Below are positions 2,842 through 21,931 of a stretch of 21,931 bases of DNA, piece after piece. Where the stretch lies: the IMG/VR virus record IMGVR_UViG_3300029912_000001, positions 1-21,931 of that record; one strand, written 5' to 3'. The stretch's first letter is position 1, and every line of letters begins with the position of its first letter. The DNA comes from a virus. The translations under genes were made by a program, and so were the position numbers. The notes under the pieces were generated by a model. That model was given only the letters and a program-made list of their open reading frames with translations. It had not been told where the DNA came from and did no database searches.

Positions 2842-4400
2842 TGGGGCGGGTGAGCGCCAGCGAAGAGCCGTTGGCGTTCACCGCGTCCGAGCGCAAGGCC
2901 GTTGGTATTCCTGATGCCGTGGCGCGCAGGCTGCGCGCGGATTGTGGCTTCTTCATGCACAAGGTGTTGAACGTCGAAGGCGATGCCTGGCAGCAGAAGT
3001 TTTGGGGCGCCATGTCGGGCGAGCATATAGAGCCCTTCGCCAAGCGCATGCTAGCGCTGAAAGCCTGCAAGGGTCCTGGCAAGACGTTCGCGATGGCCGC
3101 TGCGGCGTGGTGGTGGCTGTTCACGCGCTGGCATTCCAACGGCGTTGCGATGTCGATCACATCGGACAACTTGCGTGACAACTTGTGGGCGGAGCTGGCG
3201 CGCCTTCAAGGACGGTCAACTTTGCTCAGCCACTTCTTTTCTCATCGTGGAGAAAGGATCGAAGCCAAGGAATACCCAAAGGATTGGTGGTTGTCGTTTA
3301 GATCTTTTCCGCAAAACGCCGACAAGAGCCAGCAGGCCAACACCCTGGCCGGTCTACATGGGCGGCATCCGCTCGTGCTCTGCGATGAGGTAGGAGACTA
3401 CCCTGATGGAGTGGTGGTGGCCGCAGAGGCGGTGTTGGCAACGCTGGTCAATGGCAAGCCGCCCGATGGCAGGATCATTTTGGCAGGCAACCCCACCAGC
3501 ACGGAAGGTCCGCTCTACCGGGTGACGATGCGCGACCGAGCTAGATGGTTCGTGCAAGAAATCACGTCTGACCCCAAGGACCCGCTCCGCTCGCCGCGCG
3601 TGGACCCTGAGTGGGTGCAAGCACAGATCGACACCTGGGGCATCGACAGCGACTTTGTAAAGGTGAACATCCTGGGGCAATTTCCGTCGCAGCAGGCGAA
3701 CAAGCTCATCGGGCCCGACACTGTGCAGACAGCAGCAGCGCGCAAGATCGAGCCAGGCTTTCAGCAAGACGCCCTGGTCTTCGGGCTGGACGTAGCGCGC
3801 TACGGCGACAACGCCAGCGTGCTGTTCCAGCGGCAGGGCAACATGTCGTGGCGCCCCAAGGTCTGGCGCGAGTTAGACTTGATGAGCCTGGCAGATCAAG
3901 TTGCCACAGAGTTTGTCACCAAGAACCCAGCGGCTTTGTTTGTAGATCAAAGCGGCGTGGGCGGCGGAATTGTTGACCGGCTGCGGCAGATGGGCATTCC
4001 CGTGCTCGCCATTGACTTTGGTGGAGCCCCTTTGGACAACCGCTTTGCAGATCGCCGCAGCGAGATGTACTGGAAGATGGCGGATTGGCTCAAGCGTGGA
4101 GGAACCATACCTGACGACGTAGCTCTGCGGCAGGAGCTGGTGTCGCCCAACTACTCGTGGAAGGCGACCGGCAAGATCACAAAGTTTAAGCTGGAATCCA
4201 AAGACGAGATGAAAAAGCGCGGCGTGAGCAGCCCGGACATGGCCGACGCGCTCGCGCTTACTTTTGCAGCGCCTGTGGTAACGCCTGCAAAAGATCAAGT
4301 CATGTACAGCGCGCCTCAGATGGGCAGCAATAATGGCTGGGGCAGCAACCGCTTGCGCGGCGGGACTGAAGAGTCCTGGGACCCTTATGGGAGCGACTAA
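2841..4400 (+). CDS. terL: Terminase large subunit (packaging ATPase-nuclease)
   Basis: The 519-residue motor protein pumps DNA into the prohead and cuts the concatemer. The ATPase half has a Walker A-like loop KACKGPGKT (residues 74-82, with K81), a Walker B strand HPLVLCDEV (D182, E183) and a coupling-motif-like ILAGNPTS (213-220). The RNase H-fold nuclease half has the expected acidic residues: D317 in FGLDVARYGD, D369 in LFVDQSGVGGG, and D466/D469 in SSPDMADALAL. The length is normal for the family. ATG 2841 overlaps the preceding stop (TAATG); the frame is open further upstream but that part lies inside the preceding gene. The C-terminal 35 residues are Gly/Ser/Asn-rich and probably flexible. 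Confidence 0.95.
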   Translation: MGRVSASEEPLAFTASERKAVGIPDAVARRLRADCGFFMHKVLNVEGDAWQQKFWGAMSGEHIEPFAKRMLALKACKGPGKTFAMAAAAWWWLFTRWHSNGVAMSITSDNLRDNLWAELARLQGRSTLLSHFFSHRGERIEAKEYPKDWWLSFRSFPQNADKSQQANTLAGLHGRHPLVLCDEVGDYPDGVVVAAEAVLATLVNGKPPDGRIILAGNPTSTEGPLYRVTMRDRARWFVQEITSDPKDPLRSPRVDPEWVQAQIDTWGIDSDFVKVNILGQFPSQQANKLIGPDTVQTAAARKIEPGFQQDALVFGLDVARYGDNASVLFQRQGNMSWRPKVWRELDLMSLADQVATEFVTKNPAALFVDQSGVGGGIVDRLRQMGIPVLAIDFGGAPLDNRFADRRSEMYWKMADWLKRGGTIPDDVALRQELVSPNYSWKATGKITKFKLESKDEMKKRGVSSPDMADALALTFAAPVVTPAKDQVMYSAPQMGSNNGWGSNRLRGGTEESWDPYGSD

Positions 4401-4766
4401 ATGGGATCTTCAAACGTAGTCAACCAGCAAGGCAGCACGCTCTCGGACGCTGACCACGACACTTTGTACGGCATTGACGGACCCGGTGGCGTTAAAGTTG
4501 GTGGCTTGCGAAACACAGATCCCACCAAGTTTGCAACCATGTTGAACAACTGGTTGACGAGCGGAAAGCCCAAGCCGGTGAATCCGGGCGAGACATTTAA
4601 GCAGGCTCAGGACGTGTACGGGTTGCACGAAAAAGCCAGCGCAGGCGCGGGCATCGGCGGACTCTTTGGGTTGGGCTTGATGATTGGAGATCTTTCACCA
4701 AAGGTGCCAACTCTTACACCCAACGTGCCGTCCTATGGCATGAAGCCTGTGCCGGGTGTAAAATGA
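4401..4766 (+). CDS. Hypothetical protein with glycine-rich hydrophobic segment (121 aa)
   Basis: ATG 4401 directly abuts the terL stop, and the gene ends inside the portal start (ATGA overlap). The 121-residue product has a polar N-terminus (Asp-, Gly- and Asn-rich), a central helical part (TKFATMLNNWLTSGKPKP), then a glycine-rich hydrophobic stretch AGIGGLFGLGLMIGDL (about residues 82-97) that could contact a membrane or pack in a virion. The tail is proline-rich. No family is recognised. Its place between terL and portal suggests a packaging or head-vertex accessory. Confidence 0.7.
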   Translation: MGSSNVVNQQGSTLSDADHDTLYGIDGPGGVKVGGLRNTDPTKFATMLNNWLTSGKPKPVNPGETFKQAQDVYGLHEKASAGAGIGGLFGLGLMIGDLSPKVPTLTPNVPSYGMKPVPGVK

Positions 4767-6625
4767 GCAGCTGGGACTTGATTCAAAAACAGATCAACGA
4801 ATCTGCCAAGCACCCAGATCCTCAAGAGTTCTTGGGCATCAAGCGTCAGACCGTACAGCCAGAAGACCGGCTCGAACGCAGGCGCCGCTATTTACTGAGC
4901 TGGACCGCACGCAAAGCCGAGCGCACCCGGCAATGGAGCAAGTGGCAGGATCTTTCGTCTTTAATCATGCCAGAGCTGGGCCGGTTTCTAACGTCGGACC
5001 ACAACGTGCCGAAAGACACGTCGAAGATTCTCAACGGCACGCCCACGCGCATGGCGCGCTCTCTCATTGCCATGCTCATCTCTGGCCACACCAGCCCGGC
5101 GCGCCCGTGGTTGAACCTTACTGTGATGGATCAAAACTTGGCCGAGTGGGGGCCAATGCGACGTTGGCTGTGGGAGTTGAACCGGCGCGTGCGGCTGCTG
5201 TTCGAGCTGGCCAACTTCTACCGCGTCATGGCCATGTGCGTGTATCCGGGCCTGGCAGTATTCGGCCTGGGCACTTGTCTACTCGAAGAAGATCCTGTCA
5301 AGGTGCTACGCTTTCCGCAGCTGGCAATGGGCTCCTACGTGCTGGCTGGAGATGGCGACGGGATCATTGACACGTTGCAGTACGAAGAGGCGTGGACCGT
5401 GGGCGAGCTGGTCAAAGAGTTTGGCTGGGACAACGTCTCCAACTCGATCAAAGTTGCTTGGAACGGCGGTTGGTACGAGCAGTACGTTTCGATCTTGCGA
5501 ACTATCTCGCCAAACTCTGAGTTTATTCCCGGCACCATCGGCGCCAAGGGAAAGAAATGGGGCTCGGCCTGGATGGAGATTGGCGGACTGTCCAGTGCGG
5601 CGGGCGCCTTGGCGCAGCCTAGCTCGGACCCGGCCATCGGTTTTCTGCGCGAGGGAGGCTACGAGTCCTTTCCGGTGTTGTGCGCTCGCTGGGCCACCAC
5701 GTCGAGGGACATCTACCCAACAGGGCCTGGGCACGACGCGCTGCCAGACGCGCGCATGGTCATGCAGCTGGAGCGGCGCGAGTTGCTGGCCATCAGCAAA
5801 GGCGTGAACCCTGCCATGCTGATACCCGACGCACTGAGGCTCAACCGTTTGAGCATGCTGCCCGGTGACGCCATCTACTACCCGACCGGCACCAATGGCA
5901 TAGAAATCAAGCCCGCACATATCGTGGACCCGCGCTGGGTCGAGCAGTCCGCGAGCAAGCGGCAAGAGGCAATGCAGCGTATTGGGCAAGCTTTCTTTGT
6001 CGATCTTGCACGCATCTTTACCGAGACGCAGCCTGGCGACAGCAAGCAGCCCGACACGGCGGCAGCGGTAGCAGCCAAGGACCAGGAAAAAATGTTGCAG
6101 CTGGGCCCGGTGCTGGAAAACATCAACGAGTTTTTGACCCGCTTGGTTGAGCGCACGTTGCAGATCATGGCTAAGCGTCGCATGATTCCGCCCGCGCCGC
6201 TGGAGGCGCGCGACATGCGATTAAAGGTCGAGTTTGTGTCGATCTTATCTCAAGCGCAGAAGTTGCTGGGCGCGCAGCCCAAAGAGCGTTTGATTCAAAT
6301 GGTCGGGCAACTTGGCGCAGTGGTTGGGCCTAACGCGCTGGAGCAGCCCATCGACAAGATCAATACTGATGTGCTGGTGGATGAGTACGCGGACGACCTG
6401 GGCATTCCGCCTTTGGCTATTGCCACGGACGAAGAAGTTGCGAAAAAGAGGCAAGCGCGCCAGCAGCAGATGCAGCAGGCCCAGCAGGCGCAGATGATGG
6501 CGACGGGCGCAGATGCCGCGCAGAAGGCAGGGACGGTGGACATGAAGGGTGACAACTTGGTTACGCGAATGCTTGGGCAGACCGCGGGCGCTGAAGCAGG
6601 CGAGTCTGGAGAGCAAGCCGCATGA
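4763..6625 (+). CDS. Portal (head-to-tail connecting) protein
   Basis: The 620-residue product is the ring through which DNA enters and leaves the head, of the T7 gp8-like head-tail connector class. The region from about residue 42 to 120 fits the family: an Arg-rich helix, then WQDLSSLIMPELGRF (61-75), KILNGTPTRMARSLIAMLIS (88-107) and SGHTSPARPWLNL (107-119), which match the S-G-x-T-(S/N)-P-x-x-P-W-(F/L) box of podoviral portals. The centre is mixed alpha/beta. The C-terminus is Gln/Ala-rich (KKRQARQQQMQQAQQAQMMA), as is common in this family's barrel and tail segments. ATG 4763 overlaps the previous stop (ATGA). The position after terL and before scaffold and capsid is standard. Confidence 0.9.
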   Translation: MSSWDLIQKQINESAKHPDPQEFLGIKRQTVQPEDRLERRRRYLLSWTARKAERTRQWSKWQDLSSLIMPELGRFLTSDHNVPKDTSKILNGTPTRMARSLIAMLISGHTSPARPWLNLTVMDQNLAEWGPMRRWLWELNRRVRLLFELANFYRVMAMCVYPGLAVFGLGTCLLEEDPVKVLRFPQLAMGSYVLAGDGDGIIDTLQYEEAWTVGELVKEFGWDNVSNSIKVAWNGGWYEQYVSILRTISPNSEFIPGTIGAKGKKWGSAWMEIGGLSSAAGALAQPSSDPAIGFLREGGYESFPVLCARWATTSRDIYPTGPGHDALPDARMVMQLERRELLAISKGVNPAMLIPDALRLNRLSMLPGDAIYYPTGTNGIEIKPAHIVDPRWVEQSASKRQEAMQRIGQAFFVDLARIFTETQPGDSKQPDTAAAVAAKDQEKMLQLGPVLENINEFLTRLVERTLQIMAKRRMIPPAPLEARDMRLKVEFVSILSQAQKLLGAQPKERLIQMVGQLGAVVGPNALEQPIDKINTDVLVDEYADDLGIPPLAIATDEEVAKKRQARQQQMQQAQQAQMMATGADAAQKAGTVDMKGDNLVTRMLGQTAGAEAGESGEQAA

Positions 6626-6966
6626 GAGCCGACGAGCAGGAGGGCATACTTAATGACTCCAGCGCAAAGCGCGCCAAGGACCAAGTTGAAGCTGAAGCGC
6701 GGCGCTTGAACAGAAGCGATCTGTTAGAGCTTCTGGGCAACCCAGCGTTTCTGCGTTGGCTGCAAAAATTTGTGTACCCGTGTTTGATGCAGGCTTTTCC
6801 AGTTGGCGATCATGCTGAGCTTGCAGCGTTCAAGGGCAGGCATCACTTGCTGCTGGAGATGATGAGGGATTTTGAGGAACAGGAAGGCAACTTTTTAGGC
6901 CGGTTGATCGACGCAAGAGAAAATTATCAGAGCATGCTGCTGCGAGCAGCTGGAGATAGATCATGA
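6622..6966 (+). CDS. Bbp19-like small structural protein
   Basis: The 114-residue product starts in an ATGA overlap with the portal stop and ends in an ATGA overlap with the scaffold start. The core, LLELLGNPAFLRWLQKFVY then HAELAAFKGRHHLLLEMM, resembles the small Bbp19-like phage proteins (a helix ending in (F)(L)xWL, a Cys/Phe-rich middle, then A-x-x-x-G-(R)-R-x-x-x-L-x-(L)-L), which sit beside the portal and scaffold in BPP-1-type phages. Its role is not firmly known to me; a head or assembly protein is likely. The family match is from memory of the pattern. Confidence 0.6.
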   Translation: MRADEQEGILNDSSAKRAKDQVEAEARRLNRSDLLELLGNPAFLRWLQKFVYPCLMQAFPVGDHAELAAFKGRHHLLLEMMRDFEEQEGNFLGRLIDARENYQSMLLRAAGDRS

Positions 6967-7742
6967 CTGAGCAAGAGTTGAAAGCCCACGCTGACGCGCA
7001 GGCCGCAGAAGCAGCCAAGGTCGCTGCCCAGGTGAAGACTGAACAAGTGGCCAAGGACGCAGAGCTGGCCAAGGGACCCAGCGGCCTGGACAGCATCAAG
7101 GCCGAAGATTTGAAGTCGTTGTACAGCAAGTCGCCGCAGATGTTCAAAGACGCAGGGATCGTGCAAGCAGAGCCTGTTCTCAAGCCCGTCGAACTGCCAC
7201 AGAGCGCCGCTCCGGTGGCCTACGAAGGGATTGAGATCAAGTTTGAAAAGGACGTGGTCGTACCAAAGGAAGTTCTCGACAAGTATTTCGTGCACGCAAA
7301 AGCCAACGGATTGACGCCCAAGCAGGTTCAAGCCGAGATTGATTTTCAGTTGGAGCGTGCACGAGAGTTCACAGCGGCTCAGCCCAAGGTGAAGACTTCG
7401 CAGGAGCTTCAGCTTGAGCAGGACGGCTTGAACGTGGCGGCGTTGAAGGCTGACCCGGTCTTCGGGAAGGCGTACGAGGCCAACATGGAGTTGGCTCGCA
7501 GAGCCGCTGCAAAGTTTGGTGATGCCGAGTTGTTGGAGAGGCTGCGCACCAGCGATCCTGTGTTGGTCAGGCACTTCCACAAACTCGGGCTCGCTGATGC
7601 CGAGGACGGTACGCGCAGAGGTCAAAGCAGGAATGGCAACGAGTCTGACGAAGCAGATCCTGCAAAAGCTCAGGAAGCTTACATGCGCAGGCGCTACAGC
7701 AGATCTCCTCAGATGTTCCCCGACAACCCCAAGCAAGATTAA
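6963..7742 (+). CDS. Capsid scaffold protein
   Basis: The 259-residue product is highly charged and helical, rich in Ala, Lys, Glu and Gln, without Cys, and lies directly before the major capsid gene; together this is the signature of a scaffolding protein. It would guide prohead assembly and then leave. An unusual feature is a duplicated motif: YSKSPQMFKD at residues 54-63 and YSRSPQMFPD at residues 245-254, near the two ends. Scaffold C-termini often bind the capsid protein, so the motif may be a capsid-binding peptide. ATG 6963 overlaps the previous stop (ATGA) and has GGAG upstream. Sequence similarity to a named scaffold family was not recognised; the call rests on composition and order. 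Confidence 0.8.
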   Translation: MTEQELKAHADAQAAEAAKVAAQVKTEQVAKDAELAKGPSGLDSIKAEDLKSLYSKSPQMFKDAGIVQAEPVLKPVELPQSAAPVAYEGIEIKFEKDVVVPKEVLDKYFVHAKANGLTPKQVQAEIDFQLERAREFTAAQPKVKTSQELQLEQDGLNVAALKADPVFGKAYEANMELARRAAAKFGDAELLERLRTSDPVLVRHFHKLGLADAEDGTRRGQSRNGNESDEADPAKAQEAYMRRRYSRSPQMFPDNPKQD

Positions 7743-7757
7743 CTAGGAGCGGCAAAC

Positions 7758-8786
7758 ATGGCACTTTCAGCACTCAGCTCAACCGACCTTACATTGGTCG
7801 ATGTTGCAAAGCGATCGAAAGACGGGATGATGCTTCCCGTCGTGGAAGCGCTCCAACAGCGCAACGGTCTGCTCCAGAGCATGGTCTGGAAGCAGGGCAA
7901 CACCGACACCGGCCATCAGGTGGCTTCGCGCAATGCGCTGCCGTCTGTCTCTTGGGTCCGGTATAACGACGGCGTGCAGCCGTCCAAGAGCACGGTGGAC
8001 ACGTTCACTGAGCGCACGGGCATCCTCGAAGGTCTGTCGTCCGTGGACAAGCGCGTTGCGCAGATCAACGGCAACGAAGCAGCTTTCCGCGCGTCGGAAG
8101 ATGACGCTTTTCTTGCGTCGATGGCCAACACCCTGGAGTCGGCGTTCTTCTACGAGTCCACCAAGGTCAACCCAGAGCGCATCATGGGTTTGGCACCGCG
8201 GCTCGGTCTGAGCACCGGCGCGTACGGCAACAGCATCATCAAGGCGCAGGTCGCGGAAACCACGGCGGACCAGACTTCAATCTGGTTGGTTGGCTGGGGT
8301 GAACGCACTGTGTACGGCATCACCCCGCGTGGGCAGCCGACTGGTCTGGAGATGGAAGACAAGGGCGAAATCCGCGACAAGGATTTGGTCACGGGCGCCG
8401 TGAAGTACAAGTACGAGACGTTGTTCCGTTGGCGCTGTGGTCTTTGCGTTGAGGACTATCGCTTCATCGTCCGTATCGCCAACATCAGCTCGTCAACTCT
8501 GACGGTGGACGCTTCCACCGGCGCAGACTTGATCCGCTCTATGGTGAAGGCGTACTGGCAGATCTTCGACCCTCGCTCGGTGCGGCTTGCGTGGTACTGC
8601 AATCGCACAGTCGGAAGCTTCCTGCATCAGCAGGCGCTGTCGAAGACCTACAACTCGACTCTGTCCATTGATCCCGCGCCGATGATTGGCGCAATCGGGA
8701 TGTTTGGGCAGCCCATCGTTCGCGCGCTGGGGTCGCCAATCTACATCTCGGACGCAATCACCAACGTCGAAACTTTCGTCAACTAA
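7758..8786 (+). CDS. Major capsid protein, Gp7-like (epsilon15/BPP-1 type)
   Basis: The 342-residue product builds the icosahedral shell. The N-terminus (SSTDLTLVDVAKRSKDGMM, then LPVVEALQQRNGLLQSMVWK) and the ASRNALPSVSWVRYNDGV segment match the Gp7-like major capsid family, known from phage epsilon15 and Bordetella phage BPP-1, which has an HK97-like fold. Later segments such as GLAPRLGLSTGAYGNSII and WGERTVYGITPRG fit the same family. Length is typical. It has its own strong ribosome binding site (AGGAG at about 7744-7748) and a 15-nt gap before it, unlike most genes here, which fits high expression. The scaffold gene precedes it and the cement gene follows. Confidence 0.88.
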   Translation: MALSALSSTDLTLVDVAKRSKDGMMLPVVEALQQRNGLLQSMVWKQGNTDTGHQVASRNALPSVSWVRYNDGVQPSKSTVDTFTERTGILEGLSSVDKRVAQINGNEAAFRASEDDAFLASMANTLESAFFYESTKVNPERIMGLAPRLGLSTGAYGNSIIKAQVAETTADQTSIWLVGWGERTVYGITPRGQPTGLEMEDKGEIRDKDLVTGAVKYKYETLFRWRCGLCVEDYRFIVRIANISSSTLTVDASTGADLIRSMVKAYWQIFDPRSVRLAWYCNRTVGSFLHQQALSKTYNSTLSIDPAPMIGAIGMFGQPIVRALGSPIYISDAITNVETFVN

Positions 8787-8816
8787 TAGTCCACCCGGAC
8801 AATAAAGGAGATCAAA

Positions 8817-9368
8817 ATGCAGGACAAATTCGCAATGTTCGACATCGCGTCGAGCTTGATTCAAGCTGGTGCATCGGGCATCGGCTTTGGTGGTGGAGTC
8901 GCAGGTGCCTACACGTCACCCGGAGGTACGGGTGGCTCGTATGACACGGGCGCGCCTCTGCCTGCCAGCAACACGTCTGGCACGGGCATTCCCAACGCCG
9001 TAGGTCCGACCGGCACCATTGGCGGGCCTTTGCTGCATGATCTGGGCCGTGGACGGAGGTTGCTGCTCTACGTGCAGGTCGTGGCCCTGGTGACGCCAGG
9101 CACGGCAACGCTGGAAGCCGACTTCATCTGCGCAGACTCGGCGGACTTGACCGTCAATCAAACGATCTTGCTCCGTTCCAATGCGGTGTTGGTGTCCACC
9201 ATGGTCAACAACCCTGGGTATCGGTTCCCGCATGGGAGCACGCCCGGAATCGTGCCGCGCAGGTTCGTGGGCATGCTATACACCATCGGCGTTTCCACCA
9301 TCACTGCTGGCAGCGTCTCGGCGGGCTTGATGCTCGACGTGGATGATCACGCTGGCGTCTACTCGTAA
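8817..9368 (+). CDS. Cement / decoration protein, Bbp16-like
   Basis: The 183-residue product follows the capsid gene and has a strong AAGGAG site before ATG 8817. After a short N-terminal segment and a Gly/Ser/Thr-rich stretch (about 24-66) it is predominantly beta (RRLLLYVQVVALVTPGTATL, QTILLRSNAVLVSTM, GMLYTIGVSTITAGSVSAGL). This fits the jelly-roll cement protein that staples capsomers in BPP-1 (Bbp16), encoded directly after the capsid gene there as well. The gene order is strong support; sequence similarity is recognised by pattern only. It should act on the outside of the capsid. Confidence 0.72.
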   Translation: MQDKFAMFDIASSLIQAGASGIGFGGGVAGAYTSPGGTGGSYDTGAPLPASNTSGTGIPNAVGPTGTIGGPLLHDLGRGRRLLLYVQVVALVTPGTATLEADFICADSADLTVNQTILLRSNAVLVSTMVNNPGYRFPHGSTPGIVPRRFVGMLYTIGVSTITAGSVSAGLMLDVDDHAGVYS

Positions 9369-9377
9369 GGAGAGATC

Positions 9378-9752
9378 ATGTCAAGCGCAAAAGATGATGT
9401 TCCGCGTTTCAAGGTGACGCAGCCGTTTTTCGACGGCAGCACCAAGCATGAGTCTGGGACCGAGCTGGCCTGGTCGGTTCCGGCCGGGTGGGATGCGCGC
9501 CTGAACGGGCCCCACTACATGGAGAACGGGCCCAGCCTCACGTTCGAGCCTCTCAACGAGGCAGCGGAAAAGTTGCAGCTGTCCCATCGTGAGCGCATTC
9601 GGCGCGCGAACCAGCCGCAGGCGTCCGAGATGGAGCAGTTGAAAAAGTTGGTGGCCACCCAGAACGAGCAGATCTTGACGCTGATGAACAACGTCATGGC
9701 CGAGAACGCTGAGCGGCGCAAGCGAGACGACGAGCGCGAGAAGAAGCGGTAA
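9378..9752 (+). CDS. Hypothetical head-region protein with C-terminal coiled coil
   Basis: ATG 9378 has a strong AAGGAG site. The 124-residue product has a first half with aromatic, beta-like character (RFKVTQPFFDGSTKHESGTE, then SVPAGWDARLNGPHYMENGP). The second half is a strongly charged helix, probably a coiled coil (EMEQLKKLVATQNEQILTLM onward to a Lys/Arg/Glu-rich end). No family is recognised. It is the last gene before the hairpin that separates head and tail genes and it shares the strong-signal layout of the capsid genes, so a head-associated structural protein is a reasonable guess. Confidence 0.7.
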   Translation: MSSAKDDVPRFKVTQPFFDGSTKHESGTELAWSVPAGWDARLNGPHYMENGPSLTFEPLNEAAEKLQLSHRERIRRANQPQASEMEQLKKLVATQNEQILTLMNNVMAENAERRKRDDEREKKR

Positions 9753-9757
9753 CACAC

Positions 9758-9791: not shown

Positions 9792-9806
9792 CATTCAGGA
9801 GCCAGC

Positions 9807-10628
9807 ATGCCCGCTCGCGCAGACGTAGACATTGCTAACATGGCCCTGCTTTACGCAGGTGTGAATCAGCGCATCAGTGCGTTGACAGATAGCTCGCCAG
9901 CGGCGCAGGCTCTCAACACTGTTTACGCTGAAATTCGTAGATCTTTACACAATGAATTTCGTTGGCCGCACGCGGTCAAGCGGCAGCAACTGATTCCGTA
10001 CTTTGGCAATCAGTACGCTGCGACTGGGATCTACAACGTAGGAGATCTTGTAAAGTTTGGTAACAACGTGTATAGATCTTTGCTCGGTATGAATTTGAAT
10101 AACGAGCCCGACTTGAATAGCGCTGCTGCGTGGTGGGCGCAAGTTACGCGCGACGGCTATGCGTACGTTTGCCCAGTGCCGCCCGACATGCTGAATCCTA
10201 TAGCGGTCTGGGAAAAGCTCACGGTGACAGGCGCCAGTGTCGCGCCTCTGTACGCCTTCGACAACACGCCGACGATGCCTAACTTGCGCAATCCGCGCAT
10301 GAGCCAGCGAACGCCGTTCAAGCTAGAGAACGCCAACGACGGAACAGATCTTGAAGTTTTGCTGTGCGATTTGGACACGCCTATATTGGAGTACACGGCG
10401 GACGTGACCAATCCGTCGATCTATCCGCCGATGTTCGTTGAGACGTTTGCGTGGCATCTTGCGGCGCCGCTGGCAATGGGCCTTCGCGGCGATGAGAAGA
10501 AAGCTCAAGCTTGTGAAGTGATGGCCACGCGCACGCTCGCAGATGCCTGGGTTATTGCGATGCGCGACATGCAGGAAGACGAGCAGCCGGTCAGTGAGTT
10601 TGAAGCTTCGCGTGAGGGTATGCCATGA
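9807..10628 (+). CDS. Tail tubular protein A-like adaptor with carbohydrate-binding-like insert
   Basis: The 273-residue product resembles T7 gp11-type adaptors, which sit under the portal and hold the tail. The N-terminus (ADVDIANMALLYAGVNQRI, then SSPAAQALNTVYAEIRRSLH) and FRWPHAVKR (51-59) match the family's 'N-x-x-L-..-G-..-I' and 'W-x-F/W-A' layout, and the C-terminal half (PPMFVETFAWHLAAPLAMGL) is the usual second helix. Residues about 72-113 are an insert: YNVGDLVKFGNNVYRSL followed by NNEPDLNSAAAWWAQV, which resembles the chitin-binding type CBM5/12 module (Y-x-x-G-D-x-V-..-Y-..-P-..-W). ATG 9807 has AGGAG at 9797-9801; the longer TTG start at 9789 would lie in the hairpin. It is the first gene of the tail module. 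Confidence 0.85.
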   Translation: MPARADVDIANMALLYAGVNQRISALTDSSPAAQALNTVYAEIRRSLHNEFRWPHAVKRQQLIPYFGNQYAATGIYNVGDLVKFGNNVYRSLLGMNLNNEPDLNSAAAWWAQVTRDGYAYVCPVPPDMLNPIAVWEKLTVTGASVAPLYAFDNTPTMPNLRNPRMSQRTPFKLENANDGTDLEVLLCDLDTPILEYTADVTNPSIYPPMFVETFAWHLAAPLAMGLRGDEKKAQACEVMATRTLADAWVIAMRDMQEDEQPVSEFEASREGMP

Positions 10629-13435: not shown

Positions 13436-13907
13436 CGTTCGCGCAGTACCTGCGGGCAAGCGCCAAGTGCGCGAGCTGGGGCGCCTCATGCGCCCAGCTG
13501 ACCGTGCAGAGATCTTAGCGTCAGGCGGCTGGAGCGATGTCGAGCGCTGCTTGCGCGCCAACGTGAACCGCTCAGTTGAAGCTTGGGCAATGTACGCTGA
13601 CAAAGATCTTCTCTGCATTGTAGGTGTGCTGTTGGGGCCCAACTGCCAGGTGCCGTGGGTGCTAACCAGCGTGCACGTCGATAATCATCCGCTGACTTTT
13701 TGGCGGGCAAGCAAGGAAGTGGTGGACAAGCTGCGTGACAAGTACCCGTTAATGATCAACATGATTCATGCCAAGTACGGAGCCGCGCTGCGCTGGGCTG
13801 AGAGGCTAGGTTTTACGATCATGGCTCCTGAGAAGTTTGGCGTAGCGGGCGACTTGTTTTGCAAGGTTGTGCTCGACACGCGCAAGATCGAGGTGGCTTG
13901 TGGGTAG
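13422..13907 (+). CDS. T7 gp13-like internal virion protein with GNAT fold
   Basis: The 161-residue product has the outline of GCN5-type acyltransferases and of the T7 gp13-like internal proteins: LGRLMRPADRAEILASG (19-35), a strand pair DLLCIVGVLLG (62-72) and VPWVLTSVHV (78-87), a helix FWRASKEVVDKLRDKY (93-108), and the end motif AALRWAERLGFT (121-132), the N/A-x-x-W-x-x-x-L-G-F of the fold. Whether it is still catalytic is unknown. TTG 13422 is the likely start, with GAGGGAG at about 13408-13414, and overlaps the nozzle stop by 14 nt. Place in order (nozzle, this gene, gp14-like) matches T7. Confidence 0.75.
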   Translation: MEILSVRAVPAGKRQVRELGRLMRPADRAEILASGGWSDVERCLRANVNRSVEAWAMYADKDLLCIVGVLLGPNCQVPWVLTSVHVDNHPLTFWRASKEVVDKLRDKYPLMINMIHAKYGAALRWAERLGFTIMAPEKFGVAGDLFCKVVLDTRKIEVACG

Positions 13908-14385
13908 CGCGGCCTTGCTGGCGATGGGCACGGGCACGGCTCTCAAGACAGTAGCGTCATTGCAGCAGGCTGACCGGGCCAGGGCGGATGCTGAATTGAC
14001 CGCGCAGGCGTCCGACCGGGCGGCGTCTGACGCGGTGCGTCGTGGCGAGTTGCGGGACCTACAGGTGGCTATGCGCGGCTCGGCCGTCACAGCGGCCCAA
14101 CAGGTGGCCCAGAGCGGCACCGGCATCCTGACGGGTGTAGGAGCGTCGAGGACGGCGCTGGAAGCGTCTTCGGCCGTGAATGAGGTAGACAGGCGAACCG
14201 TGCGCATCAACGCGGCGTTGGACGCCTACGGCCTTCGTGAGCGGTCCAGGGCCGCCCGTCAGGAAGGCGCGAACGCCCATGCGTCCGGTGTGAACGCCGC
14301 CGTGGGTACGTTCTTGAGCGGCGTTGCCAGCGTGAGTGAGAAGCTGGGCGAGCGCGCGGCTGACCAGCCGGGTGAGGACGAATAA
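13900..14385 (+). CDS. T7 gp14-like internal virion protein
   Basis: A 161-residue, almost entirely helical protein. It opens with a small hydrophobic, glycine-rich segment (GSAALLAMGTGTALKTVASL) and continues with Ala/Arg/Glu/Gln-rich helices (LQQADRARADAELTAQASDR). A central QSGTGILTGVGASRTALEAS segment matches the 'Y/Q-x-x-S-G-..-L/I-..-G-S' turn seen in gp14-like proteins, and a DRRTVRINAALDAYGLRER helix follows. In T7, gp14 forms the outer-membrane part of the ejection channel. GTG 13900 with GAGG about 6 nt upstream is preferred; it overlaps the previous stop by 8 nt. The frame is open further upstream inside the preceding gene. It ends in TAATG overlap with the next gene. Confidence 0.72.
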   Translation: MGSAALLAMGTGTALKTVASLQQADRARADAELTAQASDRAASDAVRRGELRDLQVAMRGSAVTAAQQVAQSGTGILTGVGASRTALEASSAVNEVDRRTVRINAALDAYGLRERSRAARQEGANAHASGVNAAVGTFLSGVASVSEKLGERAADQPGEDE

Positions 14386-16106
14386 TGCCGACTCCCGAGA
14401 TTCAAGAGGCCAGCGTGCAGCAAGAGGCTACGCCGGTGGTGTCGCAGCAGACGCCGGGAGTAGGATCGTACGCGGGCGCAACAGTAGGACAGGCGTTGGA
14501 CGTTGCGGGCGATGCGCTTTGGAAGATCGGCACGCAGGAATATCAGCGCGCAATGCAGGCTAAGGCGCAGCAAGCCGAGTCAAACGCGCAACGTGAAATG
14601 CAACAGGTTCGAGACGGCTACGCTTCAAAGCAATTTGGCGAGAACGCCGTGAAAACGCACCAACAAACAAGCGATGCTTTGGAAGCGATCAGAACAAAGT
14701 ACGAGCACTCAATACCAAGCAAAATGGGGCGCAACGTCTATAATAACGCTACGCTTAAGATCTTGCGCATGTCGCAGGAAGGCGTAGACTCGCACTTTGA
14801 ACGGCAAAACAAAGTTTATCAAAATGATCAATTCTTGAGCGTTGCGCAGAACAACACAAAAGAGATCGCAACGCAAGCGCGGGATAACCCAGCCAACGCG
14901 CTCAAGCTTCTGCGAGACTTGCCTGCCCGCGCGCGCCAGCAGGCAGAAGGCCAAGGCAAAGAAGGCGAGGCAGCTGACGCTTTTGTGTCAAAGATCATGC
15001 AAGCACCAACACAAGCTTATCTGGTGGGGCTTACGCACAACCTAGACGTGACGCCTACGCAGCTAGATGAAGCGTATGAGAAGTACGGCACCGTGCTCAC
15101 AGACGCTGGCCGTAAGTCTGTCGAGGCTGCGATCTTTAAGAAATCTGTTGCGTGGACGGCCAGCGCTATCGTGGATACTTTGCCGGTCGTTGCGTACGAT
15201 GCGCGCGGTCGGTATAACGTGGACGCGGTACAAGAGCACAAGGCGAATCTTGACCCAGACGATCCGCGTACTCCAGCCATCATCAAAAGTTTGGATCATG
15301 CAGTGTTAGAGCGCAACAATGAAGTTAAAGCGCGGGTGTTGCAGAGCATGGATGCGATCAACAAAGCTCAGGTGCGTGGCCAGCCGTTCAAGATGAGTCT
15401 GGCTGACAGCGCGGATGTTGCTGAGATACGTATGAACGATGGCGCGCTTGCGCGCGCGCTAGACAGGCGCGAAACGAACGAACTTGCCACGGCGCAAGGG
15501 CGCGAACTGCGGACAGTCAAAACCGCGAACCGCGCATCGTTCAATGAGGAGTTGTTTCGTGTAAATACGCTGTCAGACGATGCGCTGCGCCAGCTTAATC
15601 CTAAAGAGTATGCGAACGTTGTTCGCGCTCTGGGCTTGCCCGAACCGATGGTAGACAAGCTGACACACCATGTCGAAGCTGAACAAAAAGAAGCGACTGG
15701 CGGATTGACGCGCACGGATCTAACAAGCATCGCTAGCGCTGTTGCGACGGCGGCGCATCGAGGAAGCCCACGGCTTTCAGCGCAGGCTAAACTTGAGATT
15801 CATTCTGCGCTGGCGGAAGCTAAGCGCAACGGTTTGATCAAAGACTACGACAGCGCTGTGAAGTTTGCGCAGAGTAAAACTAAGATCGTTCCTAACGGCA
15901 CGACTATGTTTGGGTTGGTCGGCAAAACTGCGACGCAGTGGCAAATTGACGCCGCTCACCGCGATTCAGACGGGCCGCGGACCGCTCCTGCGCAGGCTGT
16001 GCCTGTCGCCAAGCAGAACGTGCCAAAGCGTTTGTCAGCTCCCAAAACTATTGGCGGTGAGACGCGCGTGTATGACTACGATCTGAAAGCTTGGGTAAAG
16101 CCGTGA
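14385..16106 (+). CDS. Internal virion / ejection protein, gp15-like by position
   Basis: The 573-residue product is helical throughout, with many Ala, Gln, Lys and Asp residues and a polar Gln/Pro-rich N-terminus. A helix near residues 44-75 is Gln-rich (YQRAMQAKAQQAESNAQREM). Later parts (for example ALKLLRDLPARARQQAEGQG, then DVTPTQLDEAYEKYGTVLTD) look like stacked helical repeats such as those of gp15-type ejection proteins. No enzymatic motif is visible. ATG 14385 sits in a TAATG overlap and has a GGTGAGG region upstream. Order between a gp14-like gene and a very large gp16-position gene is the main support; sequence similarity to T7 gp15 is weak by eye. Confidence 0.65.
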   Translation: MPTPEIQEASVQQEATPVVSQQTPGVGSYAGATVGQALDVAGDALWKIGTQEYQRAMQAKAQQAESNAQREMQQVRDGYASKQFGENAVKTHQQTSDALEAIRTKYEHSIPSKMGRNVYNNATLKILRMSQEGVDSHFERQNKVYQNDQFLSVAQNNTKEIATQARDNPANALKLLRDLPARARQQAEGQGKEGEAADAFVSKIMQAPTQAYLVGLTHNLDVTPTQLDEAYEKYGTVLTDAGRKSVEAAIFKKSVAWTASAIVDTLPVVAYDARGRYNVDAVQEHKANLDPDDPRTPAIIKSLDHAVLERNNEVKARVLQSMDAINKAQVRGQPFKMSLADSADVAEIRMNDGALARALDRRETNELATAQGRELRTVKTANRASFNEELFRVNTLSDDALRQLNPKEYANVVRALGLPEPMVDKLTHHVEAEQKEATGGLTRTDLTSIASAVATAAHRGSPRLSAQAKLEIHSALAEAKRNGLIKDYDSAVKFAQSKTKIVPNGTTMFGLVGKTATQWQIDAAHRDSDGPRTAPAQAVPVAKQNVPKRLSAPKTIGGETRVYDYDLKAWVKP

Positions 16107-19100
16107 CTGACTGGGACAAAGTAGAGCCGCCGCCACCGCCTGCGGGAGTTTCTGACTGGGCTAAGGTTGCACCGCCGCCAGAAGATAGCGACAACGTCGG
16201 TGTAACGCGCCTGCCGCCACCGCCTGACATGAAATCTTCAGGTTTGAAAAAAGGCGCTTACACGCTTGGCGGGCTTGAACTTGCAAACGCTGCAAAAGAT
16301 CAAGACCCAAAAAAAGCAATACAAGCGCTCAGCGATGCGCGTGCAAACAACTTGGAGCCACAGCACGCGGCTGACAACGCTGACATTTTTCAAGCGCAAC
16401 GGCAGACTGCGGGCGTGGCGCAAGCGTTGGCACAAAGCCCGGCGCTAATGAGTTACGCGGGCCAGTCAACACAACACGTTGCAGCTATCGCGGGCGATTC
16501 CACCAACCTTGCAGCCGTAGGGCGCGGAGCTTTTGGCGAGCCTGAGCTTCCTTGGTACGGAGATCTTGACGAAAACGCGCCGCCTGCGGAAGATGGGCCC
16601 GCGTACGAGCGACCCACCGGGCCCGATGCAATCACTGCTGCATTGACCAAGCACACTGCGTCAATGATCAAAGATTTTGTTGACGCATACATCGGCCTTC
16701 AAAGCACGCCTTCGCAGGGCGTTAAAAATCTGAGCAAGTCTCTTGGTAGCATTGCAGGACAAGATCTTGCAGATGTGATTCCAGCGCCTGTGGAGGCAGT
16801 GGCGGGGGTGCTGCCATCTCTCGTGGGCTTGGGAGTCGCTGCGGCAACTGGGCCCGAAGCGTTGTTTGCCAGCATGTTCATGGGCGGTTATGGAAGGCTC
16901 AGAGCAGCGGGCGTAGAAGATGGCCTGGCTGCGACCGGCGCGGCACTGGCTGCCAAGCTGGGCTCTGGCTTTGGTACTGAGTTTTTGACTGGGCTGGCGC
17001 CAAAGGCAACGCAAGCCTTGGTTCGCGATACGGCTGCGCAGGCCATGACTTCGCTAGTGCGCAGCGCTGCTGCCAAGGAAGCGGCAAAAAAGTTTGGCGT
17101 GCATGCAGCTTCAGGCGCGCTGATGACTATCAGCATGGGCATGACTGAGTTGATCACAAAAAATATTGACACGTACAGCAAGACCGGCAAAGAACCAGAT
17201 CCTTCTGAGCTATGGCAAAACTTCAAGCAGCTGTCCAAGCAAAGTCTTGCGCTCTTGCCGTTTGCAGCAACCGGTCCGTTGATGGAGTATCACCAACAAA
17301 TGGGCAGGCACCTGGCTGCTCATGCAGATCAAATTAAGCTTGCAGCGTTAACCGGCCCACTTGGCGAAACGGACATTGTGCGCACCGCGCCTGCCGAAGC
17401 TAAACAGATCGTGCGCCAGATGGCTGATGACGCGGGCGAGCGTTGGGCCAACGAAGAGCAGCCTCCACCAAGCGCGCCCGCGCGCGGAGGCTCTGTCGAG
17501 ATAATGGCTGGCTCGTACGTTCAGGCGGCGAAGCAATCAAAGGTAGTTGACGCGCTGAAAAAAGAAATCAATAAGATCGAAACCTCGGGCGACACCGTAC
17601 CCGAAGACTTGGAGCGTAAACTTACGCAGGAAGTTGGCAAGCTGAACCGGCTGATGGAGCCTGAGCATTTTGGGGAGCCCATCCCTGCGCCCGCGCGCGC
17701 AGCGGGCAAGGTTTACGTTGACGCTGACGTGCTGCGCAAAGTTGCTACAAACAATAAACTTGATCCGCACAAAGTAGCTGAACAAGTTACAGGCAACGCC
17801 AACGCGCTAAACGAAGCAGAGGCAACGAACACGGCCATCGCAGTCCCGGTGGAGAACTACGCGGTGGACTTGCAGCCTCTGCACAAAGATCTTGCCAAAG
17901 GCACGTCACTGCATGAAGACAACCCTTCGTTGGCGAGCGTGCAGTCTGAGCCTCCTATTGATCTGCAAGAAGCGCTGGCTAATTTAGCTAAGCCGCTGAA
18001 CAACGCTGAGTTGACTAGACTTGCTGCGGTAAACGCAAAAGCAGCTCCTGCGCCCGTAGCAGATCCTGCCCTCAACACGCCGCAAACAATTCATGGCATT
18101 CAAAAAACATTCGCAGCGTTGAAGACGCTAGGCTTTGATGTGCCTGAATTGCCCGCCAGTATAGTGCCTCTCAACACAGGTGAGCCGTTGTCGCCACCAA
18201 AAAAAGAGCCCACTACGCCTGCTGCTATCTACAAAGCTCAAGCAGTCAAGGCGATGGCAGACAAAACGATCTTTCAACTGGCGACAAAGGCGTATGCGAG
18301 CGCAGCCCGCAAAGCTCAAGGCATCATTGATAAGATGCGGGTGCAGACGGAAAATAAACTGTCGAGCGCTGAGCAGACTGCGCAGCAAGGGATCGACGCT
18401 AAGACGCGGCAAGAAGCCCAGGACAAGTCCGTCACAGCCACGCAGAAGACTGTTGTTGCGGGAGAGAAGTCTCTCGAAGCGATGCGTCAGATTGAAATTC
18501 GCAATCTAAACCGGGCCATGGAAACCGCGCGGGCCCAGGCGCAGAAAGCGGCAACTAAAGTAGTTGGTAGCGTCACTGCGTCTGTGTCGGACGGCATTCG
18601 GGCAGACCGCTACGGCGCAGGCGCGCTCTACGGCGAGCTGTATGACCACGTTTCTCAAGCTCTGGGTTTGCGCACGCCAGCGCCCAACGAAGAGTTAAAC
18701 GATCCTACTGTCAGCATGAACGTACTACAAACTAGTTACGGCTCAGATCTACCGTTTGACTTGGAACAAGTGTTGGCCCTAATTAAGACGCCCAAAGAGC
18801 TGGGTGAAATGAAGTTGTCCGAAGCGAACACCGTTGATGCGTTTTTCAAAACGCTGCAAAAAATATCTAGCGAAGCCAGCAAAGCTTACACTGAAGGCCA
18901 GCTGCTAGATCGTAAAGCTGTCATCGACAAAGACATCTTGCCTGCTTTGAAGGCGCAAACGCCCGATGGGCAGGCTAACTCGCCTCCCGATGTGCAGAAC
19001 CCGGAGCTTGCTCGCCCGCCTCCCGATGTGCGGAACCCGAAGCAAGCAGGTGCGCGCTCGCGCTGGGAAGCGTTCAAAGACGGCATCGCAGCTATGAAAG

Positions 19101-21169
19101 GTGATGAATCCAAGCTTTCGTTTCAAACCTTGCTCAAACCCATGGGCAAGTGGGGCGCATCGCATTTCCTGCGCGTGCTCTCGGCTGAGAAAGTCGAGGC
19201 TCGAATCAGGACCCAGCAGGCAGACGCAATGTCGCTCACCAGCAAACTAGCCGGGCTAGATCGACGCGTGCCGTGGCCCCAAGGAATGTCGCAGCCAGGT
19301 TTAACTCAAGATGTATCAGTGGCCGACATGCTGCACATTCGGCGCTTGATGGGTACGGAGGAAAACTCTGCGGCTATCGCGGAAGCAACCAAGGTGCCGT
19401 TGCCAGCTTGGGAAGCTTGGTTTGATCAGCATATGACCAAAGGCATGTACGACGCTACCCAACAATTTTGGACTGGCACCAAGTCTCTCGGCAACGAGCA
19501 AGCAGCCAACATGGCTATTCGTGGCGCGGTGCCCATGGTGCGCCAGACACCGAGAAAAATCAAAACGCAATTTGGCGACTACACCGGCTCGTTCAGCGGC
19601 CCGATGCGCTGGCTCGATGGTTCAGGGCGCTTGCCTAGTCCGGTGAGTGCAGACGACCCTATGAGAGGCAACCGGGTGGCGCCTGACGTGCCCCACCGTA
19701 AGACTGAGGCGCCAAGCCCTGCCATTGACCGCTTCCCTGACCTGAGCGCGTCCAACGGCCAAGCTCATTTTAGAGAGCAGGCCCGCGACATTGCTTACAG
19801 CGAGCCGGTACGCGATGGCCACGCAATGTTTACTGATCCTGACTTTCAGCGCGCAGTGGTGCAACGGCTAGGACAAGCTTGGTATGACAGATTGATCCAA
19901 GCGCACGACCGGGTAGCTGACGGTGGCCGCGTAGCAATAGATCGTGGAATTAGCACAGTAAACGTGCTGTTCACGGGCGGGCGTATCGTGGCCGGCGCTA
20001 CGTTTCCTTTTAACATAAGCACCATGCTCAAGACTGCGATCCATCCGCTGCAAGATGCTATGCTGCAAGGCGGGGGGCTGAACTTAATCAAGGGTACGTT
20101 GCGCGCTGTCAGCTCTGAAGGCCGCGCTGAATCTAACGCGCAGTCACGCATTGTATCTTTGTACACTCGGGACGCCTATCGGCGGCAACGCGATATGGCG
20201 CACGATCTTGAAGGCAACACAGACAGCGCTCTTGAGAAAGTGGGCGATGTCGCTTCTGCCGCCGGGCACTTTTTCAATGCGCACACGCTCGCGGCGCACG
20301 CTCACATTATCTGGCATACCAATAGGTACGCGGCGCCCGCAGGTAGCACATACCAAGAGTCGATAGACTACGCGGACCAGCGCACAGCGGCAGCTTTGCC
20401 GCCAAATACGGTCGTCCGGCAGTCCGCGCAAAACATGAACCAGCTTTTTGCGGCGATGAACTTGACGTACAATTTTCAAGGAGCTTTTTTCAACATGAAA
20501 GCGCAGAACGAGATGGAGGTACGCGCGAACATCGCAGGTGGTGCAAATAAGTTTGTCGCGCGCGGTATCCAACTGGCTCAGCGGCTTGGCACCTACGCAA
20601 CTTTAGGCTTGGGACTATGGATCGGTGGCCAAGGGCGCACCAAACAAGAGGAAGAAGAAGACGCAGCCGGGCATGGCAGTGTCAGCGGCTTTGGCGATAC
20701 AACGATGCTGGGGCACCACGTTGGCACAGCAAAATGGATTGCGCGCACGCTCATGGTCGAGAAGTATTTAGGCAGCCCTATTGCGCACAAGCTCATGGAA
20801 ATGGCCGCGCCTATCTTGGTGGGCGACAAGCCTGCGCGCTCCTACGGTTTGTTAAACCCGCCTGCGCAAGAGTTGGCCGACGCGGAATGGAAAGACTTTG
20901 TTACGATCGTTAACAGCGAGAAAGAGGGTTCGCAGCGTTTGAACGCAGCGTTTGACAGCGTGGCAATGGTTTTTGTGCCCGGCCATGTGCAGATGAAGCG
21001 CAGCGGCCAAGCCAGCTATCAGCTGCTGCACGCAGAGGATTTTGAAGGCGACTATCAGCCGCGTGGTGACTTAGATAGGTTAGACATGCTCATTCGTGGT
21101 ACGAAGCCACGAAACGCTTCGTTCCTCAGCGATGCGCAAGGACTCATTTCTGGAAGGAGTAGACAATGA
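16103..21169 (+). CDS. Very large internal virion / ejection protein (1688 aa)
   Basis: In the gp16 position of a T7-like tail module. GTG 16103 overlaps the previous stop (GTGA); TTG 16091 is an alternative. The N-terminus has a short tandem motif, TDWDKVEPPPPP then SDWAKVAPPP, before a Pro-rich linker. A hydrophobic Gly/Ala-rich region follows (about residues 224-350, e.g. GVLPSLVGLGVAAATGPEAL). KVYVDADVLRKVATNNKLDP (about 536-555) resembles a module found in other large phage polyvalent proteins. A long helical, Gln/Lys/Ala-rich region (about 707-830) is probably coiled coil. A Pro-rich direct repeat lies near 960-980. The C-terminal third (about 1280-1510) has aromatic/hydrophobic segments (NQLFAAMNLTYNFQGAFFNM; LGTYATLGLGLWIGG) of the kind seen in LPD-type C-terminal domains. 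No lytic transglycosylase motif of T7 gp16 is visible. It probably enters the cell with the DNA. Confidence 0.8.
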   Translation: MTDWDKVEPPPPPAGVSDWAKVAPPPEDSDNVGVTRLPPPPDMKSSGLKKGAYTLGGLELANAAKDQDPKKAIQALSDARANNLEPQHAADNADIFQAQRQTAGVAQALAQSPALMSYAGQSTQHVAAIAGDSTNLAAVGRGAFGEPELPWYGDLDENAPPAEDGPAYERPTGPDAITAALTKHTASMIKDFVDAYIGLQSTPSQGVKNLSKSLGSIAGQDLADVIPAPVEAVAGVLPSLVGLGVAAATGPEALFASMFMGGYGRLRAAGVEDGLAATGAALAAKLGSGFGTEFLTGLAPKATQALVRDTAAQAMTSLVRSAAAKEAAKKFGVHAASGALMTISMGMTELITKNIDTYSKTGKEPDPSELWQNFKQLSKQSLALLPFAATGPLMEYHQQMGRHLAAHADQIKLAALTGPLGETDIVRTAPAEAKQIVRQMADDAGERWANEEQPPPSAPARGGSVEIMAGSYVQAAKQSKVVDALKKEINKIETSGDTVPEDLERKLTQEVGKLNRLMEPEHFGEPIPAPARAAGKVYVDADVLRKVATNNKLDPHKVAEQVTGNANALNEAEATNTAIAVPVENYAVDLQPLHKDLAKGTSLHEDNPSLASVQSEPPIDLQEALANLAKPLNNAELTRLAAVNAKAAPAPVADPALNTPQTIHGIQKTFAALKTLGFDVPELPASIVPLNTGEPLSPPKKEPTTPAAIYKAQAVKAMADKTIFQLATKAYASAARKAQGIIDKMRVQTENKLSSAEQTAQQGIDAKTRQEAQDKSVTATQKTVVAGEKSLEAMRQIEIRNLNRAMETARAQAQKAATKVVGSVTASVSDGIRADRYGAGALYGELYDHVSQALGLRTPAPNEELNDPTVSMNVLQTSYGSDLPFDLEQVLALIKTPKELGEMKLSEANTVDAFFKTLQKISSEASKAYTEGQLLDRKAVIDKDILPALKAQTPDGQANSPPDVQNPELARPPPDVRNPKQAGARSRWEAFKDGIAAMKGDESKLSFQTLLKPMGKWGASHFLRVLSAEKVEARIRTQQADAMSLTSKLAGLDRRVPWPQGMSQPGLTQDVSVADMLHIRRLMGTEENSAAIAEATKVPLPAWEAWFDQHMTKGMYDATQQFWTGTKSLGNEQAANMAIRGAVPMVRQTPRKIKTQFGDYTGSFSGPMRWLDGSGRLPSPVSADDPMRGNRVAPDVPHRKTEAPSPAIDRFPDLSASNGQAHFREQARDIAYSEPVRDGHAMFTDPDFQRAVVQRLGQAWYDRLIQAHDRVADGGRVAIDRGISTVNVLFTGGRIVAGATFPFNISTMLKTAIHPLQDAMLQGGGLNLIKGTLRAVSSEGRAESNAQSRIVSLYTRDAYRRQRDMAHDLEGNTDSALEKVGDVASAAGHFFNAHTLAAHAHIIWHTNRYAAPAGSTYQESIDYADQRTAAALPPNTVVRQSAQNMNQLFAAMNLTYNFQGAFFNMKAQNEMEVRANIAGGANKFVARGIQLAQRLGTYATLGLGLWIGGQGRTKQEEEEDAAGHGSVSGFGDTTMLGHHVGTAKWIARTLMVEKYLGSPIAHKLMEMAAPILVGDKPARSYGLLNPPAQELADAEWKDFVTIVNSEKEGSQRLNAAFDSVAMVFVPGHVQMKRSGQASYQLLHAEDFEGDYQPRGDLDRLDMLIRGTKPRNASFLSDAQGLISGRSRQ
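18981..19039 (+). repeat. Direct repeat of 23 bp inside the large ejection gene
   Basis: The same 23-bp sequence occurs at 18981-19003 and 19017-19039 with one mismatch (CAG versus CGG in the middle), 36 bp apart, and encodes PPDVQNPELAR followed by PPDVRNPKQAG. Since 36 is a multiple of three the frame is kept. It marks a flexible proline-rich linker that probably grew by duplication. Confidence 0.8.
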
Positions 21170-21931
21170 TTGGGATTCTCGCAGCGCTGCTTGCGGTGGT
21201 CAATGTTGGCACCAACGCATCGCCAGGATATGGGTGCGATGGTGTGGCAGTGGGCCCCTACGCCATCAGCTTTCCGTACTTGACCAGCACAGATCTTATT
21301 GTCACTTCGACCACGGCGCCTGGCGTGGTCACAACTCTGGCTTACGTGACCGACTACACGCTATCAGTGACCAGCACCAGCACGACTGGCACAGTGACGC
21401 TGCTCGCGGGTAGCAAATGCCCTGCTGGCAGCACGTTAACGATCACGCGCACTTTGGCTTTGACTCAGCCCTACGGATTTAGAAGTCAGACTTCGTTCAA
21501 CCCCGCGTTGCACGAGCTTGCGTATGATCGTTTGTTTATGATCATGACACAAATCAACAGCAGCGTGTTCGGCCAGTACGTATCGAAGGGCGATATCATA
21601 GTGCGTAACAGCTTGGCGCCCACCCGGCTTGGGGTTGGCGTGGACGGTCAAGTCCTCACTGCTAGCTCTGCGACGCCGACTGGTCTGGTCTGGGGCTCTG
21701 GTTTCACGGTTGGCGGCTCCTACGTGGCTCCTGGGGGCGGCGCCGTCCCGCGATCGATCGCGAACAAGCTGGGCGACGTGGTGAGCGTCAAGGACTTTGG
21801 CGCTGCAGGCGATGGGGTTACGGACGATACAGCGGCGGTCAACTCGGCCGTTGCGCTGGCCGGATCGATCACAGGAGTTACGTTCCCGTGCCCGGGCACC
21901 TACTCAACCAGCAATCGCGGCACGCTCTTGT
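21166..21931 (+). CDS. Tail fibre / tailspike, N-terminal part (cut by window end)
   Basis: The open frame has 255 residues in the window and continues beyond it. ATG 21166 has AAGGAG at 21154-21159 and overlaps the previous stop. Residues about 21-130 match the T7 fibre N-terminal virion-attachment domain layout: VGPYAISFPYLTSTDLIV (29-46), VTDYTLS (61-67), GSTLTITRTLALTQPYGF (88-105), then an aromatic helix (ALHELAYDRLFMIMTQI). Residues 142-176 are the familiar linker KGDIIVRNSLAPTRLGVG...GQVLTASSATPTGLVWG. From about 205, VVSVKDFGAAGDGVTDDTAA is the opening of a pectate-lyase-like parallel beta-helix, the fold of many glycan-degrading spikes. The first ten residues (MIGILAALLA) are unusually hydrophobic. 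It should bind or cleave the host surface polysaccharide. Confidence 0.88.
   Translation, partial: MIGILAALLAVVNVGTNASPGYGCDGVAVGPYAISFPYLTSTDLIVTSTTAPGVVTTLAYVTDYTLSVTSTSTTGTVTLLAGSKCPAGSTLTITRTLALTQPYGFRSQTSFNPALHELAYDRLFMIMTQINSSVFGQYVSKGDIIVRNSLAPTRLGVGVDGQVLTASSATPTGLVWGSGFTVGGSYVAPGGGAVPRSIANKLGDVVSVKDFGAAGDGVTDDTAAVNSAVALAGSITGVTFPCPGTYSTSNRGTLL

Follow-up and report, generated by a model that had tools for sequence, protein, structure and literature searches.

The stretch of phage DNA analyzed here carries a strong excess of the seven-letter word AGATCTT, and the pressure behind it acts at the level of the DNA, not through protein or codon usage. The word is polar, with an invariant GATC core; the palindrome AGATCT is only part of the signal. 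As AGATCTT occurs approximately eight times more often than protein sequence and codon preference call for, it must be placed or kept by something that acts on the DNA.

Virus identity and gene content

The window, that is, the whole stretch analyzed, comprises positions 1-21,931 (21,931 nt) of IMGVR_UViG_3300029912_000001, an uncultivated virus. Homology and gene order identify it as the structural-gene module of an epsilon15/BPP-1-like podovirus. The window proteins matched a terminase, a portal (head-tail adaptor), a protease, a major head protein, two tail proteins, and an internal virion protein, and the homologous terminase, portal, protease, capsid, tail tube, and internal virion genes are syntenic, in the gene order of epsilon15. 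The portal shares 34-35% identity with those of BPP-1 and epsilon15 across most of its length, and matches of the capsid protein fall in this broad group too, Limnohabitans phage DC33 (~40%) among them. The likely genes all lie on the + strand. Neither the 573-aa product (14385-16106) nor the 1692-aa product (16091-21169) matches Pfam, and the former has no PHROGs match either; their positions are those of the epsilon15 virion proteins gp15-gp17.

Two further contigs belong to the same species (99.9% identity) and harbor the same AGATCT sites wherever they overlap the window. The conspecific contig L002 extends the genome 4.3 kb upstream; searches for an extension beyond L002 and for one downstream of the window returned nothing. 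No prophage of the clade was detected in the genome collection (best match, 32% identity), and the Rfam scan of the window gave no match.

Size of the excess

The window contains exactly 21 AGATCT sites, 20 of them in genes, and all 21 coordinates read by hand in the earlier note were correct (Table 1). In 100 dinucleotide shuffles, AGATCT had a mean of 2.48 and a maximum of 8, and none reached 21. Additionally, three nulls that keep the proteins were used: shuffling synonymous codons within each gene, across genes, and while also keeping codon-boundary dinucleotides. Against the 20 sites in genes, the synonymous-codon shuffles gave means of 3.9 and 3.5 (sd about 1.7), and the boundary-keeping shuffle gave 4.4-4.5 (4.5 with a reduced gene set). 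The earlier note had accepted in advance that its claim would fall if a codon shuffle yielded about 21 sites or if unrelated AT-containing 6-mers were equally in excess; the shuffles gave about 4, and none of those 6-mers matches AGATCT. Its view that no single codon pair accounts for a real excess also holds, with 5/5/10 sites per reading frame against 0.2/1.9/2.5 expected.

AGATCTT occurs 17 times in genes against about 2 (2.1) in all three codon shuffles, approximately 8-fold (8.4) above expectation, with a Poisson p of about 1e-10 to be read against 16,384 heptamers. When all 4- to 8-mers were scanned against the codon null, AGATCTT was the top 7-mer and GATCTT the top 6-mer (26 versus about 5.2-5.6), with TAGATC, AGATCT, and AGATC beside them. 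GATC in general had also been proposed as over-represented, which is correct but modest once codons are controlled (124-128 in genes versus 92-97). On both strands, the window holds 957 AGATCT and 1,050 AGATCTT per Mb. No report of an AGATCT excess was found in the part of the literature covered.

Nine of the 21 sites fall within 2.3 kb (9.6-11.9 kb), as had been noticed; the clustering is mild (p about 0.008), and GC is locally lower there. The lack of sites before 3300 is true of the window but does not mark a boundary, because L002 has three AGATCT sites in the 4.3 kb just upstream. Helical phasing of the sites gave values that were erratic with the period tried and were taken as noise.

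Table 1. Positions of AGATCT-containing words and CGATCTT flank variants in the window
Word	Position	Strand	Context
AGATCTT	3300..3306	+	large terminase gene, AGA TCT frame
AGATCTT	4688..4694	+	GAT CTT frame
AGATCT then C	7701..7706	.	protease gene
AGATCTT	8560..8566	+	major capsid gene; only site common to relative L082
AGATCTT	9670..9676	+	
AGATCTT	9939..9945	+	tail tube A gene
AGATCTT	10043..10049	+	tail tube A gene
AGATCTT	10074..10080	+	tail tube A gene
AGATCTT	10346..10352	+	tail tube A gene
AGATCT then C	10671..10676	.	tail tube B gene
AGATCTT	11180..11186	+	tail tube B gene; full palindrome AAGATCTT
AGATCTT	11395..11401	+	tail tube B gene
AGATCTT	11836..11842	+	tail tube B gene
AGATCTT	13510..13516	+	internal virion protein gene
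AGATCTT	13604..13610	+	internal virion protein gene; AAGATCTT
AGATCTT	14758..14764	+	AAGATCTT
AGATCTT	16561..16567	+	1692-aa ORF
AGATCTT	16762..16768	+	1692-aa ORF; AAGATCTT
AGATCTT	17887..17893	+	1692-aa ORF; AAGATCTT
AGATCT then A	18745..18750	.	1692-aa ORF
AGATCTT	21291..21297	+	downstream of 1692-aa ORF, outside listed genes
CGATCTT flank variant	5490..5496	+	
CGATCTT flank variant	6001..6007	+	
CGATCTT flank variant	6240..6246	+	
CGATCTT flank variant	9163..9169	+	
CGATCTT flank variant	15130..15136	+	
CGATCTT flank variant	18267..18273	+	
CGATCTT flank variant	20203..20209	+	

Polarity, core, and flanks

T follows AGATCT at 18 of the 21 sites, whereas A precedes it (AAGATCT) at only five. 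Within genes, the following base is T in 17 of 20 cases compared with 45% under the null (p about 0.0003). The earlier focus on a palindrome therefore captured a real excess but not its form, as what is enriched is a polar word built on a GATC core, and the enrichment of GATCTT equals that of AGATCT. Flank deviants that keep GATC are enriched as well (CGATCTT, 7 in genes versus 1.8; AGATCCT, 6 versus 1.4; AGATCGT, 4 versus 0.9), whereas single-base deviants inside the core are near expectation. The left A and the right TT contribute independently: their fold enrichments are 2.2 and 5.0 and that of GATC is 1.34, so that 2.2 x 5.0 / 1.34 predicts an 8.2-fold enrichment, and 8.4-fold was observed.

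Synonymous choice

The AGATCTT excess is a signal at the synonymous level. The dipeptides concerned are near normal (Arg-Ser, 25 versus 22.7; Asp-Leu, 40 versus 32.5), and Ile-Leu, Ile-Phe, and Ile-Ser also occur at ordinary or nearly ordinary rates. AGA-TCT is used in 5 of the 25 Arg-Ser pairs, with AGA making up only 24 of 383 Arg codons. GAT-CTT encodes 12 of the 40 Asp-Leu pairs, nine of these after a codon ending in A; after such codons, it is the commonest Asp-Leu pair. Codon usage and dipeptides were rejected as the cause on the codon shuffles and dipeptide counts, and codon-boundary dinucleotide effects on the boundary-keeping shuffle.

Avoidance of other palindromes

Loss of short palindromes under restriction is well known in phages; accumulation of one is not. 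The excess had been described as the reverse of the usual phage pattern, and the same genes bear this out: 22 other 6-bp palindromes stand at or below half of the codon-shuffle expectation. GCCGGC and CTGCAG are the most strongly depleted, and palindromes are likewise reduced in several relatives.

This avoidance raises a rebound explanation, in which avoided sites (GGATCC, CGATCG, CTGCAG, and others) were changed to neighbors such as AGATCT. The single-step escape products AGATCC and AGATCG are indeed raised 1.8- to 2.6-fold. However, imposing the observed avoidance on codon-shuffled genes gave AGATCT a mean of 3.9 and a maximum of 7, which largely refutes the rebound, and the right-hand TT is not explained by it; we regard it as very improbable. 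Deamination of a precursor was also rejected, as AGACCT (1 versus 3.5) and AGGTCT (2 versus 1.5) are too little depleted to supply 15 extra sites. A strand bias from Type III restriction was not retained either, because it would account for sites being lost from one strand but not for sites being gained.

Comparison with other phages

The comparison set comprised 56 other loci, namely terminase and portal relatives, mostly phage contigs of 5-21 kb, two of them identical. Under the boundary-keeping null, the best 7-mer in these loci never exceeded a -log10 p of 5.6, compared with 9.6 in the window. Seven named relatives, including BPP-1, DC33, zth2-2, and ctEw122, were scanned likewise. Among the some 60 loci analyzed alike, AGATCTT is the strongest dispersed word. 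This rank, the Poisson p, and the presence of the excess in three contigs of the species leave almost no room for chance or codon usage raising one word out of thousands, even with the word picked after the sequence had been read. In BPP-1, CGATAGC appeared equally strong but owes most of its count to a tandem repeat of 24 bp in VR2 and was discarded. The VR2 annotation of that record (L121, 33229-33558) spans 24-bp units repeated in tandem within bbp36.

This phage is not alone in having one enriched palindrome, but its polar seven-letter word is the strongest dispersed word among the loci compared. In Podoviridae sp. ctEw122 (MW202640.1), a distant cousin with a related virion module, AGATCT is again the most enriched palindrome (34 versus 12.3). 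There, however, the word lacks polarity (right flank C 14, T 15, G 9, A 0), CGATCG and ATCGAT are enriched too, and total GATC is much higher. Limnohabitans phage DC33 (L120, PQ492659.1) and phage zth2-2 (L124, OL791268.1) strongly over-represent CTCGAG (29 versus 7.7 and 29 versus 10.7, respectively). Both resemble the window in having one dispersed palindrome 2.7- to 3.8-fold above the codon shuffle while many others are avoided, and differ from it in that their word lacks a GATC core. The record of L120 gives its taxonomy as Inoviridae, yet its 39-kb genome has a capsid gene matching the podovirus group of the window, and it is probably misfiled.

Close relatives and hosts

The closest relatives, L082, L083, and L003, share about 75-79% DNA identity with the window in their best segments. 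None showed a clear or significant AGATCT excess over codon shuffles, a null that is conservative for such short sets because the boundary-keeping shuffle mixes poorly in them. Where the two can be aligned, 15 AGATCT sites lie in the window and six in L082. The single site present in both falls in a conserved Gln-Ile-Phe encoded by the capsid gene. Most of the remaining window sites encode amino acids other than those of L082, so AGATCTT arose largely at variable positions. With no clear excess in the closest relatives and one of 15 sites shared, the pressure is recent and the excess young.

A host chromosome rich in AGATCT or AGATCTT could pass its word bias on to the phage, since phage composition usually follows that of the host. 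Hosts rich in HIPs (highly iterated palindromes) do exist (PMC4390886). The host survey was sparse. It took in about 800 proteobacterial genomes, drawn from the class (369) and the order (300; a few overlap) of the beta-proteobacterial locus L106 and from the class of the alphaproteobacterial locus L108 (142). The highest AGATCT density among the 369 was ~675 per Mb, in a genome where the control word is also very common; for AGATCTT, the maximum in the 300 and 142 genomes was about 580 per Mb. In sampled stretches of the densest alphaproteobacteria, AGATCT stayed at or below 1.9 times its codon-shuffle value. None of the about 800 genomes approached the window in the density of the word counted, and inheritance of a host bias, from a host that may be unsampled, is improbable. 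In the class of L108, G781 (loci L131-L133) showed a very strong excess of CGACACTTC-like words, with ACACTTC at 26 versus 3.5 in sampled genes, a count that may include repeats.

Possible accumulation around a GATC-recognizing enzyme

Our tentative first choice, with the cause inferred, is a HIP-like accumulation of AGATCTT driven by an enzyme that recognizes GATC, either a methylase or methyl-directed repair. Such an enzyme could be a DNA methyltransferase of the host or phage, or the repair machinery reading its mark. It would bias which bases beside GATC survive, the left A and right TT would accumulate, and AGATCTT would need no function of its own. In HIP1, deviation within GATC is disfavored and deviants concentrate at the outer bases, and a methylation-directed repair ratchet has been proposed (PMC4390886). 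Like HIP1 and the alternate HIPs of cyanobacteria (Elhai 2015, PMC4390886), AGATCTT is a short GATC-core word that stands far above expectation regardless of reading frame and whose one-base deviants spare the core. HIPs are palindromic, chromosome-wide, and cyanobacterial, whereas AGATCTT is a polar 7-bp word in a phage, with few AAGATCT sites, and no host carrying the word was found.

The methylation reading is supported by the adenine methylase of BPP-1, the two DNA methyltransferases of epsilon15, and a short ORF of ctEw122 annotated as an N-6 methylase in a genome that also has AGATCT as top palindrome. No methyltransferase was recognized among the proteins scanned in 26 kb (the window and upstream L002). 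The polarity of AGATCTT, its lack of excess in the surveyed hosts, and the absence of a clear excess in L082, L083, and L003 argue against methylation.

Nearly as likely as methylation or repair is a dispersed, oriented site bound by a sequence-specific phage or host protein and kept by selection for binding. This possibility, which we hold with reserve, would involve a ParB-like or repressor-like protein, a nucleoid protein, or a Chi-type recombination signal. A polar 7-bp word with additive flank contributions behaves like a binding-site matrix, and a ParB-like protein (phrog_1033, E 4e-12) is encoded upstream on the opposite strand (L002 554-1654, -); it had no tblastn relative in the phage collection. 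Two of the three upstream L002 sites keep the genome polarity despite the reversed gene, as expected for a signal in DNA and not in mRNA; the third is opposite, and only these three sites bear on polarity versus gene direction. However, 20 of the 21 window sites lie inside genes, and inspection by eye showed no extended conservation of the flanks. Sites of ParB and of repressors are also normally longer, and known Chi words are G-rich. Chi sites and DNA uptake sequences resemble AGATCTT in being polar, dispersed, and over-represented, and have other sequences. No enrichment of IHF sites or boxA was detected.

AGATCT is also identical to the 6-mer that ATP-DnaA binds as single-stranded DNA in the unwinding element of the E. 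coli origin (PMC8235120), and the sites might act as host DnaA-ATP boxes that titrate or recruit DnaA. The sites are, however, spread over structural genes and not an origin. The 9-mer boxes that accompany AGATCT in a DnaA-dependent origin are missing: the window has no TTATNCACA, and one-mismatch boxes are at chance (6 versus 7.3). A role as DnaA boxes is hence slightly harder still to credit than the rebound from restriction.

Meaning of the signal

Whether through methylation-linked repair, selection for binding, or otherwise, the window would offer a compact natural case for the origin of highly iterated words. A broader reading, which we consider rather doubtful, is that AGATCTT is the phage's own genome-wide oriented DNA signal, placed in synonymous positions of structural genes for a protein or methylase of the phage to read, with other family members using other words, such as CTCGAG. 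Such a signal would be read during replication, packaging, partition, or self-recognition, and, if the reader is a phage protein, it would represent a new kind of genome-wide phage signal.

Before the rightward genes, at 344-440, the window also harbors a repeat cluster in which GTGTAAAGTTACAC occurs as direct copies at 360 and 389 and, inverted, at 420. It includes perfect 21-nt inverted arms (353-373/420-440) and looks like an operator array.
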